Part shown: positions 35,166 through 46,063 of the stretch, in pieces
Layout: each line of letters opens with the position of its first letter
How positions within the stretch are numbered: position 1 is the stretch's first letter
Source: [Clostridium] clostridioforme AGR2157
Lineage (GTDB): Bacteria; Bacillota; Clostridia; Lachnospirales; Lachnospiraceae
Reading direction: 5' to 3'
DNA length: 64,000 nucleotides
Assembly (NCBI RefSeq): GCF_000424325.1
Contig: NZ_AUJR01000012.1
Coordinates: forward strand, 1 to 64,000
Notes under the pieces: model-generated
Told to the model about the DNA's origin: nothing
Database searches by the model: none
Seen by the model: the letters and a program-made list of their open reading frames with translations, nothing else
Made by a program: the position numbers and the translations under genes

Positions 35166-35198
35166 ATTCATATCATGCAAGCTAGTGCATACTCCATA

Positions 35199-35285
35199 TT
35201 TCCCTACGTTGGCATTATCCAAATCAGGTTTAATAGGTCGAAGTTCGATTACTTCCTCTCAGCCTGCTCCACAAGCTCCCTGTTG
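35199..35285 (-). ncRNA. TPP riboswitch aptamer upstream of thiC
   Basis: On the minus strand the THI-box consensus is clear: ACAGGGAGC at the 5' side of P1, GGCTGAGAGG in the pyrimidine-sensor arm, then ACCTGATTTGGATAATGCC and AACGTAGGGAA closing P1. It lies about 170 bases before the thiC start and should shut thiC down when thiamine pyrophosphate is plentiful. Confidence 0.95.
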
Positions 35286-35348
35286 TAATATGACTGAATA
35301 CGGCAGCTCTCCTGCTGTATCCGAAAGGCATTTTCGCCTCACTCTGTC

Positions 35349-40663: not shown

Positions 40664-40692
40664 TAGACTAAAACTTTTTTAGGTACTATAAT
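40664..40692 (+). promoter_or_regulatory. Promoter of the xanthine dehydrogenase operon
   Basis: TAGACT (40664-40669), 17-base spacer, TATAAT (40687-40692). Transcription would start about 30 bases before the purine aptamer. Confidence 0.6.
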
Positions 40693-40726
40693 TCTTTTTA
40701 AGATAACAATTTAACATTTCTTTTGC

Positions 40727-40794
40727 CAATATGTATATCCTGGGGATTGGCCCAGAGTCTCTACCAACTACCGCAAAGAGTTGGCTACATATCT
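40727..40794 (+). ncRNA. Purine riboswitch aptamer (guanine-type pyrimidine, variant L2)
   Basis: P1 is ATATGT (40729-40734) with ACATAT (40787-40792). P2 is CTGGG/CCCAG (40740-40744/40751-40755). The J2/3 core AGTCTCTACC is canonical. P3 is CCAACT/AGTTGG, with loop CCGCAAA. The base that selects the ligand is C (40785), as in guanine/hypoxanthine aptamers rather than adenine. L2 is GATTGG, six bases, instead of the usual seven-base GATATGG, a departure from consensus. It precedes xanthine dehydrogenase and a purine permease. Confidence 0.85.
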
Positions 40795-40817
40795 TAATGT
40801 AGCCAGCTCTTTTTTTC
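40777..40817 (+). terminator. Riboswitch-controlled terminator overlapping the aptamer
   Basis: AGAGTTGGCTACAT (40777-40790) pairs with ATGTAGCCAGCTCT (40797-40810), one wobble pair, followed by seven Ts. The 5' half of this stem is the 3' half of aptamer P3 and P1, so aptamer and terminator cannot form together: ligand binding should allow transcription. Confidence 0.85.
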
Positions 40818-40874
40818 TATTTGTGTAAAGATTCGCACTAAAATTGGCAGGAAAAGTAAGGAGGAAATCAAAAA

Positions 40875-43301
40875 ATGAATATTGTAGGGCAGCAAGTAAA
40901 ACGTGTTGATGCTTACGGGAAGGTGACCGGTGAGGCCAAGTACACCGCGGACCTGGAACCAAGAGACATCCTGCACGGTAAGGTCGTGCACTCTGCCATT
41001 GCCAACGGACTGGTCAAAAGCTTTGACTTGACAGAGGCCTATCAGGTACCTGGTGTGGTGAAGATTGTCACATGCTTTGATGTTCCCGACTGCCAGTTTC
41101 CTACGGCAGGCCATCCATGGAGCGTGGAAAAGAAGCATCAGGATATCTGTGACAGGAAAATACTGAACCAGAGGGTCCGTCTGTACGGGGATGACATAGC
41201 GGCTGTCATCGCTGAGGATGAGGTGGCCGCAGCCAGGGCAGCCCGCCTGATTAAAGTGGAATATAGAGAATATACTCCTATTGTTACAGTGGAGGCAGCC
41301 ATGGCAGAGGACGCCACTCCCCTGCACCCGGATCTCAGGAAGGACAATGTAATCGTACACTCCCACATGACCATGGGTGACAGTGATTTCACCTATGAGG
41401 ACGGACTTAAGAAAGCCGGGTCCTGTTACGGACCGGAGGAAATCATTTCCCTGGAAAAGGAATACGATACCCCAAGGATTTCCCACTGCCACATAGAGCT
41501 GCCAGTTTCATGGGCCTATGTGGACACCAACGGCAAGATAACCGTGGTATCCTCCACCCAGATTCCCCACATAGTCAGGCGCTGTACGGCACAGGCCCTG
41601 GGAGTTCCAATCGGAAGGGTGCGCATCATAAAGCCTTACATCGGAGGCGGCTTCGGCAACAAGCAGGACGTGCTCTATGAACCCTTAAACGCATTCCTGA
41701 CCATGTCCGTCGGAGGACGGCCTGTCAGGCTGGAAATCAGCCGGGAGGAAACCATCTCCGGCACCCGCACCCGCCACGCCATCAAGGGAAAATGTAAGGG
41801 CCTGGTGACAAGGGACGGACGCATCCTTGCCAGGAAGCTGGAGGCCTATGCCAACAACGGCGCCTACGCATCCCACGGCCACGCCATCTGCGCCAACTGC
41901 GGCAATGTATTCAAGGACCTTTACAGGGATGAGCTGGGTACTGAGGTGGACTGCTTCACCGTATACACCTCCTCTCCCACGGCCGGCGCCATGAGGGCCT
42001 ACGGCATTCCCCAGGCAGCATGGTTTGCGGAATGTCTCACCGATGACCTGGCAGACGCCATTGGCATGGACCCCTGTGAATTCAGGCTGAAAAACTGCAT
42101 GGAGGACGGATTCGTGGACCCGGCCAACGGCATCACCTTCCATTCCTACGGTCTGAAGAAATGCATCGAGGAAGGGCGCAGGCACATCCGCTGGGACGAG
42201 AAGTGGAGCGCCTACCGCAATCAGACCGGTCCGGTCCGAAAGGGTGTGGGTATGGCTATCTTTTGTTATAAGACAGGCGTGCACCCCATCTCCCTGGAAA
42301 CAGCTTCCGCCCGCATGATACTCAACCAGGACGGCTCCATGCAGCTGTGCATGGGCGCTACGGAAATCGGCCAGGGGGCCGACACCGTATTCACCCAGAT
42401 GGCTTCACAGGCAACCGGCATAGCCTTTGACAAGGTCTACATCGTATCCACCCAGGACACGGACGTGACCCCCTTTGACACCGGGGCCTATGCATCCCGC
42501 CAGACCTATGTGTCCGGCATGGCCTGCAGGAAATGCGGTGAGGAATTCCGCCTTAAGATACTGGAATACGCCGCCTACATGCTGAGCCACGATGTAAGCG
42601 ACCTCTCCAAAACCGTGTACGCCGACGAAGTAAAGGCAGCAGCTGCCCTGCTCCGGGAGACTCTGGGACTTAAGGAAGGGGCACTGGTGTCGCCGGATAT
42701 GCTGGACATAGAGAACAGCAAAATCGTGGTAAGCGGAGGGGATCCGGTGCTCTTCGACCTGTCCGTGGTAGCTGACACTGCCTTTTATTCCCTGGACCGC
42801 TCCGTACATATCACAGCCGAGGTCACCAGCCAGTGTAAGGACAACACATTTTCCTCCGGCTGCTGCTTTGTGGAAATCGAGGTGGACATTCCCCTTGGAC
42901 TGGTGACGGTGAAGGATATCATCAATGTCCATGACTCAGGAGTGCTCATCAATCCTATGACCGCGCGGGCCCAGGTCCACGGCGGCATGAGCATGGGACT
43001 GGGATACGGGCTTTCGGAGGAGCTGCTGGTAGATGAAAAGACAGGCAGGCCCTTAAACAATAACCTGCTGGATTACAAGATTCCCACTGCCATGGATACG
43101 CCGGACTTAAACGTGGCGTTCATCGAGCTGGAGGACCCAACCGGCCCTTACGGAAACAAATCCCTGGGCGAGCCTCCTGCTATTCCGGTGGCCCCCGCTA
43201 TCCGGAACGCCATCTTAAACGCCACCGGAGTCCACATGGATGTGACTCCCATGACCGCCCAGCGGCTCATAGAAAAATTCAAAGAAAAAGGTCTGATATA
43301 A
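40875..43301 (+). CDS. xdhA: Xanthine dehydrogenase, molybdenum-binding subunit
   Basis: An 808-residue MoCo-binding subunit of the xanthine oxidase family. It opens with VGQQVKRVDAYGKVTGEAKYTADL. Cofactor and substrate segments are IGGGFGNKQD, AMRAYGIPQAAWFAE, ATEIGQGADTVFTQ, the DTGAYASRQTYVSG loop and the C-terminal LGEPPAIPVAPAIRNA with the catalytic Glu. Purine hydroxylation is supported by the purine riboswitch upstream and the purine permease downstream. Some clostridial homologues carry a labile selenium ligand, which sequence cannot show. Start follows AAGGAGG. Confidence 0.9.
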   Translation: MNIVGQQVKRVDAYGKVTGEAKYTADLEPRDILHGKVVHSAIANGLVKSFDLTEAYQVPGVVKIVTCFDVPDCQFPTAGHPWSVEKKHQDICDRKILNQRVRLYGDDIAAVIAEDEVAAARAARLIKVEYREYTPIVTVEAAMAEDATPLHPDLRKDNVIVHSHMTMGDSDFTYEDGLKKAGSCYGPEEIISLEKEYDTPRISHCHIELPVSWAYVDTNGKITVVSSTQIPHIVRRCTAQALGVPIGRVRIIKPYIGGGFGNKQDVLYEPLNAFLTMSVGGRPVRLEISREETISGTRTRHAIKGKCKGLVTRDGRILARKLEAYANNGAYASHGHAICANCGNVFKDLYRDELGTEVDCFTVYTSSPTAGAMRAYGIPQAAWFAECLTDDLADAIGMDPCEFRLKNCMEDGFVDPANGITFHSYGLKKCIEEGRRHIRWDEKWSAYRNQTGPVRKGVGMAIFCYKTGVHPISLETASARMILNQDGSMQLCMGATEIGQGADTVFTQMASQATGIAFDKVYIVSTQDTDVTPFDTGAYASRQTYVSGMACRKCGEEFRLKILEYAAYMLSHDVSDLSKTVYADEVKAAAALLRETLGLKEGALVSPDMLDIENSKIVVSGGDPVLFDLSVVADTAFYSLDRSVHITAEVTSQCKDNTFSSGCCFVEIEVDIPLGLVTVKDIINVHDSGVLINPMTARAQVHGGMSMGLGYGLSEELLVDEKTGRPLNNNLLDYKIPTAMDTPDLNVAFIELEDPTGPYGNKSLGEPPAIPVAPAIRNAILNATGVHMDVTPMTAQRLIEKFKEKGLI

Positions 43302-43311
43302 GGAGAAGGTT

Positions 43312-44202
43312 ATGTTTGATATCAAATCATTTTATGAGGCCAAGGATGTGGCTGACGCCATAAATGCCCTGGTAAAAAATCCTGACGCCGAAATCATAAG
43401 CGGCGGCACAGACGTTCTGATTCGTGTCAGGGAGGGAAAGGATGCCGGAAGGTCCGTTGTATCCATCCATAATATAGAAGCATTAAAGGGAGTCCGCCTC
43501 CTTGATGACGGCGATCTGTGGATAGGTGCAGGCACTGCATTTTCCCATATCACCAACGACGCCCTGATCCAGAAATACATACCCATGCTGGGGGACGCTG
43601 TGGACATGGTGGGCGGACCCCAGATACGCAACACCGGAACCATCGGCGGCAATATCTGCAACGGCGCCACCTCGGCTGACTCCGCTTCCACCATGTGGAC
43701 CCTGGAGGCAGATGTTCTGTTAGAGGGCCCGGAGGGCAGACGCAGTGTGCCGGTCTGTGAATTCTATACAGGTCCCGGCCGGACGGTCCGTGAACGGACC
43801 GAGGTCTGTACCGGTTTCCTGGTACACAAAAGCAGCTTCGAGGGCTGGAGCGGCCATTACATCAAGTATGGCAAGAGAAAGGCCATGGAGATTGCCACCC
43901 TGGGCTGTGCGGTGCGTGTAAAGCTGAGCCGGGATAAGGAACGGATTGAGGACGTCAGGCTGGGATACGGCGTGGCCGGTCCTACTCCCCTGCGCTGCCG
44001 GAGGGCAGAGGATGGTTTAAAGGGTCACGCTGTCAATGACAGTGCGGCTATCCTGGCTTTTGGCAAGGCTGCCCTGGAAGAAGTGAACCCCCGCTCCTCA
44101 TGGAGGGCGTCAAAAGAATTCCGTCTGCAGCTCATTGAAGAATTATCCAAACGGGCCCTGGCAGAGGCAATAAAAAAAGCAGGAGGTGCGGTCAATGATT
44201 AA
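43312..44202 (+). CDS. xdhB: Xanthine dehydrogenase, FAD-binding subunit
   Basis: A 296-residue FAD subunit. FAD-contact motifs are ISGGTDVLIRVREGK near the N-terminus and GTIGGNICNGATSADS in the middle, with the C-terminal CO-dehydrogenase-flavoprotein domain. It takes electrons from the iron-sulfur subunit. It begins 10 bases after the molybdenum subunit and overlaps the next gene by 8 bases. Confidence 0.92.
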   Translation: MFDIKSFYEAKDVADAINALVKNPDAEIISGGTDVLIRVREGKDAGRSVVSIHNIEALKGVRLLDDGDLWIGAGTAFSHITNDALIQKYIPMLGDAVDMVGGPQIRNTGTIGGNICNGATSADSASTMWTLEADVLLEGPEGRRSVPVCEFYTGPGRTVRERTEVCTGFLVHKSSFEGWSGHYIKYGKRKAMEIATLGCAVRVKLSRDKERIEDVRLGYGVAGPTPLRCRRAEDGLKGHAVNDSAAILAFGKAALEEVNPRSSWRASKEFRLQLIEELSKRALAEAIKKAGGAVND

Positions 44203-44695
44203 GATTGTACACATGAAAGTAAATGGTAAGGAAGTGGAGCTGGCTGTGGATGAAAGGGAATCCCTGCTCGATACCCTGCGCCAGCGTCTGGGGCTTACAT
44301 CCGTGAAAAAGGGCTGCGAGGTCGGGGAATGCGGCGCCTGTACCGTACTGGTAAACGGAGAAGCCATAGACAGCTGTATCTACATGACCCTGTGGGCCGA
44401 GGGAAAAAGCATCATGACAGTGGAAGGTTTAAAGGGGCCCAACGGGGAATTGTCACCCATTCAGAAGGCATTTATCGAGGAGGCAGCCGTACAGTGCGGT
44501 TTCTGTACCCCCGGCCTTATCATGAGCGCGGTGGAAATCGTGGGAACCGGAAAAAAATACAGCCGGGAAGAGCTTAAGAAGCTGATATCCGGGCATCTGT
44601 GCAGATGTACCGGCTATGAGAACATCCTCAACGCCATGGAGCGCATTGTGGATGAGGTGTACCAGGTCAGCCACAGAACCAGCGGGACCGATTAA
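44195..44695 (+). CDS. xdhC: Xanthine dehydrogenase, [2Fe-2S] subunit
   Basis: A 166-residue ferredoxin-type subunit with two clusters: plant-type CEVGECGACTVLVNG (with a later Cys in SCIYMTLW) and the four-helix CGFCTPGLIM/CRCTGYENI pair. The start is placed at 44195, seven bases after GGAGG, overlapping xdhB. It completes the three-subunit enzyme. Confidence 0.93.
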   Translation: MIKIVHMKVNGKEVELAVDERESLLDTLRQRLGLTSVKKGCEVGECGACTVLVNGEAIDSCIYMTLWAEGKSIMTVEGLKGPNGELSPIQKAFIEEAAVQCGFCTPGLIMSAVEIVGTGKKYSREELKKLISGHLCRCTGYENILNAMERIVDEVYQVSHRTSGTD

Positions 44696-44722
44696 CTATT
44701 ATTAAAATAGGGGGAACAAATC

Positions 44723-46063
44723 ATGAACAGCAATACCAATTGCAGCATCAACAACATATACAGACTGGAAGGCAGGGTGCCCATTGCCAAGGCCATCCCC
44801 TTCGGCCTCCAGCACATCCTGGCCATGTTCGTCTCCAACCTTGCGCCTATTACCATCATAGCAGGCGCTGCCCAGCCGGCCCTAAGCCAGGCACAGACAG
44901 CCATCCTGCTTCAAAACGCAATGTTTGTGGCAGGAATCGCCACCATGATTCAGTTGTATCCCATCTGGCGGATTGGCTCTAAGCTTCCCGTTGTCATGGG
45001 CGTCAGCTTTACCTTCGTCACAGTCCTCAGCACCATTGCCGCCAACTACGGTTATCCCGCCGTGGTGGGAGCCGTGCTCATAGGCGGTATCTTTGAAGGA
45101 ACCCTGGGACTTCTGGCCAAATACTGGCGCAGAATCATTACCCCTGTGGTGGCTGCCTCTGTGGTTACAGCCATCGGATTTTCCCTTTTTACGGTGGGCG
45201 CCAGGTCCTTTGGCGGCGGATACGCAGACGACTTCGGTTCCGCCCAGAACCTGATTCTGGGTACCATCACCCTGCTGACCTGTCTTTTGTGGAACATCTT
45301 TGCCAAAGGATACTTAAAACAGCTGTCCGTACTGGCCGGCCTGATTGTGGGGTATGTAATCGCCATCTTCCTCGGGAAAGTGGATTTGAGCCTGATTATG
45401 TCCGGCGGAATCATCTCCTTCCCCCATCTGCTGCCCTTTATGCCTGAGTTCCATGCAGGGGCCATCATCTCCGCCTGCATCATCTTCCTGGTGTCTGCGG
45501 CAGAGACCATAGGCGACACCTCGGCCCTGGTTTCAGGCGGTTTAAACCGCGAAATCACGGGAAAGGAAATATCCGGCTCCCTGGCCTGCGACGGCTACGC
45601 ATCCACCCTCTCCACTGTATTCGGATGTCCTCCCGTGACCTCATTCTCCCAGAACGTGGGCCTGGTGGCCATGACAAAGGTGGTCAACCGTTTCACTATC
45701 ATGACAGGGGCGGCCTGTATGCTTCTGGCCGGACTCCTTCCGCCTGTGGGAAACTTTTTTGCTTCCCTGCCCCAGGCAGTGCTTGGCGGATGCACCATCA
45801 TGATGTTCGGCACCATCCTTACCTCCGGCGTACAGATGATTGCCAAATGCGGCTTTTCCCAGAGGAACATAGTCATTGTCTCCCTCTCCCTGGCAGTGGG
45901 CATCGGCTTTACCACAGCCAGTGAAATTGGGATCTGGGATATCTTCCCTGAATTGGTCCGGTCCGTATTTTCGGCCAATGTGGTGGCTGTTGTATTTGCC
46001 GTTTCCGTATTTTTAAGCCTGGTGCTTCCAAAGGATATGGATATCAAGACCCTGGAGGGGTAA
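44723..46063 (+). CDS. NCS2 family purine (xanthine/uric acid type) permease
   Basis: A 446-residue nucleobase:cation symporter with about 14 membrane segments. The NAT signature QNVGLVAMTK is present: the Gln and the final Lys fit the xanthine/urate branch better than the uracil branch. PFGLQHILAMFVSNLAP begins the first helix, and SAAETIGDTSAL carries the conserved Glu. It follows the xanthine dehydrogenase genes by 27 bases and is likely under the same riboswitch. Confidence 0.9.
   Translation: MNSNTNCSINNIYRLEGRVPIAKAIPFGLQHILAMFVSNLAPITIIAGAAQPALSQAQTAILLQNAMFVAGIATMIQLYPIWRIGSKLPVVMGVSFTFVTVLSTIAANYGYPAVVGAVLIGGIFEGTLGLLAKYWRRIITPVVAASVVTAIGFSLFTVGARSFGGGYADDFGSAQNLILGTITLLTCLLWNIFAKGYLKQLSVLAGLIVGYVIAIFLGKVDLSLIMSGGIISFPHLLPFMPEFHAGAIISACIIFLVSAAETIGDTSALVSGGLNREITGKEISGSLACDGYASTLSTVFGCPPVTSFSQNVGLVAMTKVVNRFTIMTGAACMLLAGLLPPVGNFFASLPQAVLGGCTIMMFGTILTSGVQMIAKCGFSQRNIVIVSLSLAVGIGFTTASEIGIWDIFPELVRSVFSANVVAVVFAVSVFLSLVLPKDMDIKTLEG

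Follow-up and report, generated by a model that had tools for sequence, protein, structure and literature searches.

Introduction

Guanine riboswitches are the textbook example of an OFF switch. The pbuE adenine riboswitch is an ON switch, in which the terminator is formed from the 3' strands of the aptamer itself and ligand prevents termination. According to a 2022 survey of guanine-aptamer variants, guanine-I riboswitches are OFF switches, and xanthine-II and guanine-II riboswitches were described as well (PMC9295807); for C. difficile, all four purine riboswitches are reported as OFF (PMC11477304). A literature search, with most subscription papers outside its coverage, returned no description of guanine-I switches that act as ON devices ahead of genes for guanine deaminase or xanthine dehydrogenase. 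Here we have analyzed a purine riboswitch located upstream of the xdhA-xdhB-xdhC-permease operon of [Clostridium] clostridioforme AGR2157 within 64,000 nucleotides of contig NZ_AUJR01000012.1 (positions 1 to 64,000 of the forward strand, referred to as the window). Its modelled folds and genomic recurrence suggest, with a probability of about 0.7, a guanine-sensing ON riboswitch which induces purine catabolism by transcription antitermination.

Results

A covariance-model scan identified an RF00167 aptamer at 40711-40807 on the forward strand with 51.2 bits (gathering score 37); the E-value was 9.7e-6 in the 64-kb scan and 1.8e-7 in a search of the own genome. The fold energy of -18.0 kcal/mol was no better than chance (z -1.21; 22 of 200 shuffles as good), so that the evidence for the aptamer is the covariance model. 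Three helices and the GG/CC kissing loops were present, and the pocket bases U22, U51, and C74 were those of guanine-type aptamers, in agreement with a preliminary description of this DNA that had named a guanine-type purine aptamer with C at 40785. This C also ruled out an adenine-type riboswitch, for which U74 is the criterion. A xanthine-II riboswitch was ruled out by U51 in place of G51 and by J2/3 (GTCTCTAC) and J3/1 (GC) free of insertions, and a guanine-II riboswitch by the lack of the one-base J2/3 insertion and the J3/1 insertion. The xanthine riboswitch families of Rfam gave no match in the window at the gathering score.

P2 of the aptamer comprised six pairs, one fewer than the seven of the Rfam model, the lowest being a C-A mismatch, and L2 was indeed one base short, as described before. 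The aptamer thus belongs to the short-P2 subtype, defined here by a six-pair P2 and usually a six-base L2. Position 73 was G, the base being A in the Rfam consensus and in nine aligned relatives.

The aptamer overlaps an intrinsic terminator (Table 1). Hairpin 40776-40818 reached -22.9 kcal/mol, its shuffles averaging -5.6 (z -8.24), and none of 200 shuffles did as well; one terminator-like site was found in 601 bases, with 0.5 expected in shuffles. The 5' arm of the terminator contains the P3 3' strand, position 73, C74, and part of the P1 3' strand. Identity of this arm with the 3' side of P3 and P1 had been recognized for 40777-40790, and the scan extended the arm to 40775-40790. When P1, P2, and P3 were enforced, 40727-40820 formed no hairpin ahead of the T run (-18.0); when folded freely, the 16-bp terminator and P2 were formed, and P1 and P3 were lost (-33.4). 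In folds of the growing transcript, P1 remained intact up to base 40800 and the terminator appeared from 40804 onward. Since P3 and P1 lose their 3' strands to the terminator, aptamer and terminator are mutually exclusive, and the xdhA leader as modelled is hence of the pbuE-like ON layout. Constrained, free, and growing-transcript folding all bore out the exclusive folds proposed in the preliminary description. In the usual mode of guanine aptamers guanine would repress the operon, as guanine-I riboswitches are described as OFF in three publications (PMC9295807, PMC9881172, PMC11477304). Such an OFF switch is very improbable and was rejected for the window, where constrained folding allowed no terminator once the aptamer had formed.

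With an ON layout, transcription would start near 40700 and the P1-P2-P3 aptamer with its kissing loops would fold first. Upon binding of guanine or, more weakly, of a related purine, P1 and P3 would hold and RNA polymerase would pass the T run. In the ligand-free RNA, 40797-40812 would invade and capture the 3' strands of P3 and P1, causing termination about 55 bases before the xdhA start. Living cells would then produce xanthine dehydrogenase and permease when purine is plentiful.

The arrangement recurs within the family Lachnospiraceae. RF00167 was present in 65 of 299 genomes and in 64 of 298 genera, almost every genus being represented by a single genome, and 84 aptamers were parsed, 83 fetched ones and that of the window. 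P2 had six pairs in 68 and seven pairs in 16 of them, and L2 had six bases in 47 of the 68 six-pair aptamers; long L2 readings of L061, L098, L100, and L112, as well as of L262 and L312 from other families, are parser artefacts. The first gene behind six-pair aptamers was catabolic (guaD, xdh, adeC, or an FAD oxidoreductase) at 54 loci, concerned uptake or salvage at 6, and was of another kind or absent at 8, as compared to 1 catabolic and 15 uptake or salvage genes behind seven-pair aptamers (Fisher 2.8e-10; the Fisher tests of this survey make no correction for relatedness other than the draw of one genome per genus). Whole-leader folding scored 60 of 66 six-pair platforms as ON, 42 by a strict rule and 18 by a looser one under which the terminator helix begins inside the aptamer; 4 were OFF, 2 were other, and 2 more had no terminator. 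Seven-pair platforms were ON in 4 of 15 cases, OFF in 9, and other in 2, with 1 more lacking a terminator (Fisher versus six-pair 1.0e-6). Of these four ON calls, those of L033 and L036 are doubtful, as their T runs lie far downstream. Grouped by first gene, 50 of 53 scored catabolic loci and 7 of 20 uptake or salvage loci were ON (Fisher 3.5e-7).

An alignment of 63 subtype sequences had 94.6% of cells paired, changes on both sides in 18 of 21 pairs, and invariant GG/CC. All six P2 pairs varied on both sides, and the six-pair P2 is therefore real. As judged by their genes, the short P2 together with the usual six-base L2 appears to mark a subtype that heads purine-catabolic operons in Lachnospiraceae-type bacteria. 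The earlier suggestion that the short L2 may alter ligand preference was not upheld, because L2, as part of the kissing loop, is remote from the pocket bases, which are unaltered, and because a six-base L2 is general to the subtype, guanine deaminase leaders included, and goes with the short P2.

Furthermore, the base at position 74 was compared with the first gene. C74 was found at 37 of 37 guaD-first and 7 of 7 xdh-first loci; at adenine-deaminase-first loci, U74 was present in three of four, and the fourth, with C74, continues into guaD and xdh. Base 74 thus follows the deaminase controlled, which argues for a switch that senses the substrate of the first enzyme. The most probable ligand in the window is guanine. 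The same ON device may respond to another oxopurine, xanthine, hypoxanthine, or uric acid, and thereby report the substrate of xanthine dehydrogenase, which is the first gene here. Guanine aptamers discriminate just about 10-fold against hypoxanthine and xanthine (PMC9295807), and one C74 aptamer of C. difficile is reportedly xanthine-specific (PMC11477304). Position 73 is also loosely conserved among subtype members (A 45, T 13, C 6, G 4; non-A in 23 of 68) and is G in the window. Against these points, the U22, U51, and C74 pocket is that of guanine aptamers, the subtype heads guanine deaminase, with guanine as substrate, at 29 of 68 family loci, and the xanthine-II change (U51G with J2/3 and J3/1 insertions; PMC9295807) is not present. 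We regard another oxopurine as the main ligand as rather unlikely, and guanine remains preferred.

The preliminary description had treated the switch as a single case; it is one of three in its genome and of many in the family. A search of the own genome returned three RF00167 matches and no further ones at E up to 0.001, all three with six-base L2 and six-pair P2. The second is located ahead of guaD-permease-xdhA on contig C17, its XdhA being 68% identical to that of the window, and the third (L115; C20:35662-35757 in locus C20:35362-42257) heads an FAD oxidoreductase. The latter has PF21688 as its C-terminal domain, and NCBIfam gave it no name that exceeds the cut-off; its nearest solved structure, 3nlc, is an uncharacterized protein. 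PF21688-type oxidoreductases came first at 18 of the 84 loci in the family and at 15 of the 79 outside it, and are candidates for a purine enzyme by this context. Two remoter XdhA-like genes lie at C3:25598-33417, with an aminohydrolase of the guanine-deaminase superfamily nearby, and at C5:164377-166644; neither contig had an RF00167 match.

A covariance model, R1, was built from the 63 short-P2 aptamers and gave 70.2 bits for that of the window. At order level it matched 88 of 392 genomes and at class level 102 of 391, both sets including some family genomes. Eighty loci outside the family were fetched (39 short and 41 longer by match length) and 79 were parsed within slightly wider limits than in the family, L275 being dropped as unparsed; they are a choice under strict filters, made with a model trained on the short type, and not a census. 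Among the matches listed, ON layouts were found at 24 of 26 catabolic and 8 of 27 uptake or salvage loci (Fisher 3.1e-6), at 7 of 7 guaD-first loci, and for 28 of 38 six-pair and 10 of 34 seven-pair aptamers (Fisher 3.2e-4). P2 length as a universal marker was rejected, as 10 of 38 six-pair aptamers were not ON and 10 of 34 seven-pair aptamers were ON. Six-pair aptamers outside the family also head guaB- and purL-like ORFs with an OFF layout. In favor of an OFF reading of the window, an OFF score was obtained for 4 of the 66 six-pair aptamers of the family and for 7 of 38 outside, several of the latter heading guaB or purL by ORF reading. Gene class and switch direction as scored thus go together widely, and P2 length is a family-level marker.

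R1 was also run on 80 XdhA loci of a named collection, of which 15 carry 16 matches, all scored as ON (14 strictly; L120 and L145 by the looser rule). These loci include those of [Clostridium] asparagiforme, Enterocloster alcoholdehydrogenati, Clostridiales bacterium 1_7_47_FAA, and Clostridium sp. chh4-2, where the switch directly precedes xdhA. XdhA loci titled Flavonifractor, Anaerotruncus, Treponema, Sphaerochaeta, and Oscillospiraceae had no R1 match within at most about 5 kb on either side. L121 contains two subtype switches (3409, 10875) inside one 12-kb xdh locus.

One representative was checked for each of the labels XDH, guaD, permease, xpt, pbuX, ade, MATE, and ABC; that of guaD scored 351, below the guan_deamin cut-off (375). 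For azgA and the BMP lipoprotein, NCBIfam returned nothing at 1e-20, and these labels, like guaB, purL, and TyrRS, come from reading the sequences; genes of the remaining survey members were labelled by blastp clustering. Several further loci were observed. L279 and L280 have short-P2, U74 aptamers with ON layout, located 700-800 bases ahead of an ORF resembling tyrosyl-tRNA synthetase. L284, L288, and L292 (G919:C46) are three purine aptamers within about 3 kb, each ahead of transporter-like genes. Outside the family, extra J3/1 bases reminiscent of the guanine-II insertions were read at six of the seven loci with xpt as first gene (L294, L298, L299, L304, L308, L322). At L038, L102, and L256, MATE-type efflux genes lie directly behind short-P2 ON-type aptamers (L102 checked, the others by similarity).

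The genes controlled had been described as xanthine dehydrogenase and purine permease, and this was supported: xdhA, xdhB, and xdhC are intact open frames above their NCBIfam equivalog cut-offs, and the fourth gene matched a Pfam permease family; it stayed below the pbuX cut-off (393.6 versus 414.15 bits). A TATAAT-like hexamer, judged by eye, occurs at comparable distance in the leaders of relatives. Additionally, a TPP riboswitch was found at 35183-35292 on the reverse strand of the window (66.6 bits).

Table 1. Features of the xdhA leader and operon (positions in the window)
Feature	Position	Strand	Evidence
Promoter-like site TAGACT-17-TATAAT	40664..40692	+	3 such sites in 601 bases, 1.8 expected in shuffles; weak alone
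P1 5' strand	40729..40735	+	covariance alignment, pair counts
P2 5' strand, six pairs, lowest C-A	40739..40744	+	
L2 GATTGG, six bases; GG pairs with L3 CC (kissing loop)	40745..40750	+	GG/CC invariant, 63 sequences
P2 3' strand	40751..40756	+	
J2/3 GTCTCTAC, U51 at 40762, no insertion	40757..40764	+	
P3 5' strand	40765..40770	+	
L3 CCGCAAA	40771..40777	+	
Intrinsic terminator, hairpin of 16 pairs between 40775-40790 and 40797-40812; T run at 40810-40816	40775..40812	+	
P3 3' strand, doubles as part of the terminator 5' arm	40778..40783	+	
Position 73, G; pairs with C in terminator	40784	+	alignment of relatives
C74, selector of guanine-type ligands	40785	+	
P1 3' strand, partly shared with terminator 5' arm	40786..40792	+	
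Shine-Dalgarno GGAGG	40860..40864	+	sequence
xdhA, xanthine dehydrogenase molybdenum subunit, 808 aa	40875..43301	+	NF043082, 1150.5 bits (cut-off 780)
xdhB, FAD subunit, 296 aa	43312..44202	+	NF043083, 415.5 bits (cut-off 310)
xdhC, 2Fe-2S subunit, ORF of 169 aa from GTG	44186..44695	+	NF043084, 255.3 bits (cut-off 217)
NCS2 purine permease, 446 aa	44723..46063	+	PF00860 (Xan_ur_permease), 262.5 bits

Discussion

Several points weigh against a guanine-sensing ON riboswitch. The ON score is a minimum-energy folding that leaves out ligand, kissing loop, and kinetics. A first scoring, restricted to hairpins of at most 65 bases, classified the 68 six-pair aptamers as ON in 31 cases, partial in 10, downstream in 14, weak in 10, and none in 3, and 4 of the 16 seven-pair aptamers as ON; the scheme was switched to whole-leader folding after a long terminator (L055) had been missed, and whole-leader folding was then used for the other families as well. 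In favor of the riboswitch, the predicted terminator paired 30 of the 33 non-A bases at position 73 among ON-scored six-pair aptamers of both sets, as if aptamer strand and terminator were tuned to each other; this count, however, comes from folds that favor pairs, and an extra J3/1 base is present in about five of the C cases. The support from strand swapping is modest, the own strand being better than a swapped one in 65% of comparisons at catabolic and 54% at uptake or salvage loci; 25 of 73 catabolic versus 5 of 47 uptake or salvage loci beat 95% of shuffles. Finally, G73 of the window, being off the consensus A, could weaken the aptamer.

This last point could be extended to a weakened or dead sensor, in which G73, the C-A of P2, and an A-G at the top of P3 cost affinity while a perfect terminator keeps the operon mostly off. 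G73 is unique to the window among ten aligned leaders; the C with which it pairs is mismatched to A73 in five of the six xdh orthologues, and replacement of this mismatch by G-C gives a stronger terminator. On the other hand, the C-A and A-G positions are common to xdh orthologues, bases other than A at position 73 are frequent in the subtype, the aptamer scores 14 bits above the gathering score and well with R1, and all three xdh genes are intact. Weakened or lost sensing is thus improbable, and a working ON riboswitch is the preferred reading.

If this reading is true, the guanine aptamer serves across many gut-type Clostridia as a substrate-inducible ON switch for purine catabolism, and the direction of control is set by the pathway and not by the ligand class. 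For purine degraders of the gut it would be predicted that guanine induces guanine deaminase and then xanthine dehydrogenase. The loci would also supply natural C74/U74 pairs for probing ligand logic, and an FAD oxidoreductase of unassigned role would be flagged as a likely purine enzyme. More tentatively, a Clostridia-wide purine-catabolic regulon is possible, in which a guanine-aptamer subclass (6-bp P2, six-base L2, relaxed position 73) has co-evolved with ON platforms, base 74 matches the deaminase, the PF21688 FAD oxidoreductase is a purine-breakdown enzyme, and the xdh branch may have drifted in ligand.

The switch shares features with several known systems. Like guanine-I riboswitches (B. 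subtilis xpt-pbuX, RF00167), it has the three-way junction, the GG/CC kissing loops, and the U22/U51/C74 pocket, but its layout is ON instead of OFF, P2 has 6 instead of 7 pairs, L2 has 6 instead of 7 bases, and catabolism is controlled instead of salvage or synthesis. As in pbuE, the terminator is built from the 3' strands of the aptamer; in contrast to pbuE, position 74 is C and not U, and the genes controlled are those for xanthine dehydrogenase and uptake. Xanthine-II (PMC9295807) likewise uses the guanine-aptamer scaffold, has xanthine dehydrogenase among its genes, and is ON where terminators were seen, but it carries U51G and insertions in J2/3 and J3/1, whereas the window has U51 and no insertion. 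Guanine-II, described in the same survey (PMC9295807), retains U51 and is ON in Paenibacillus; it differs in having a J2/3 insertion and in its genes, which code for phosphoribosyltransferases. Xanthine-I (NMT1) also controls purine-degradation genes (PMC7373994), by means of an unrelated fold.

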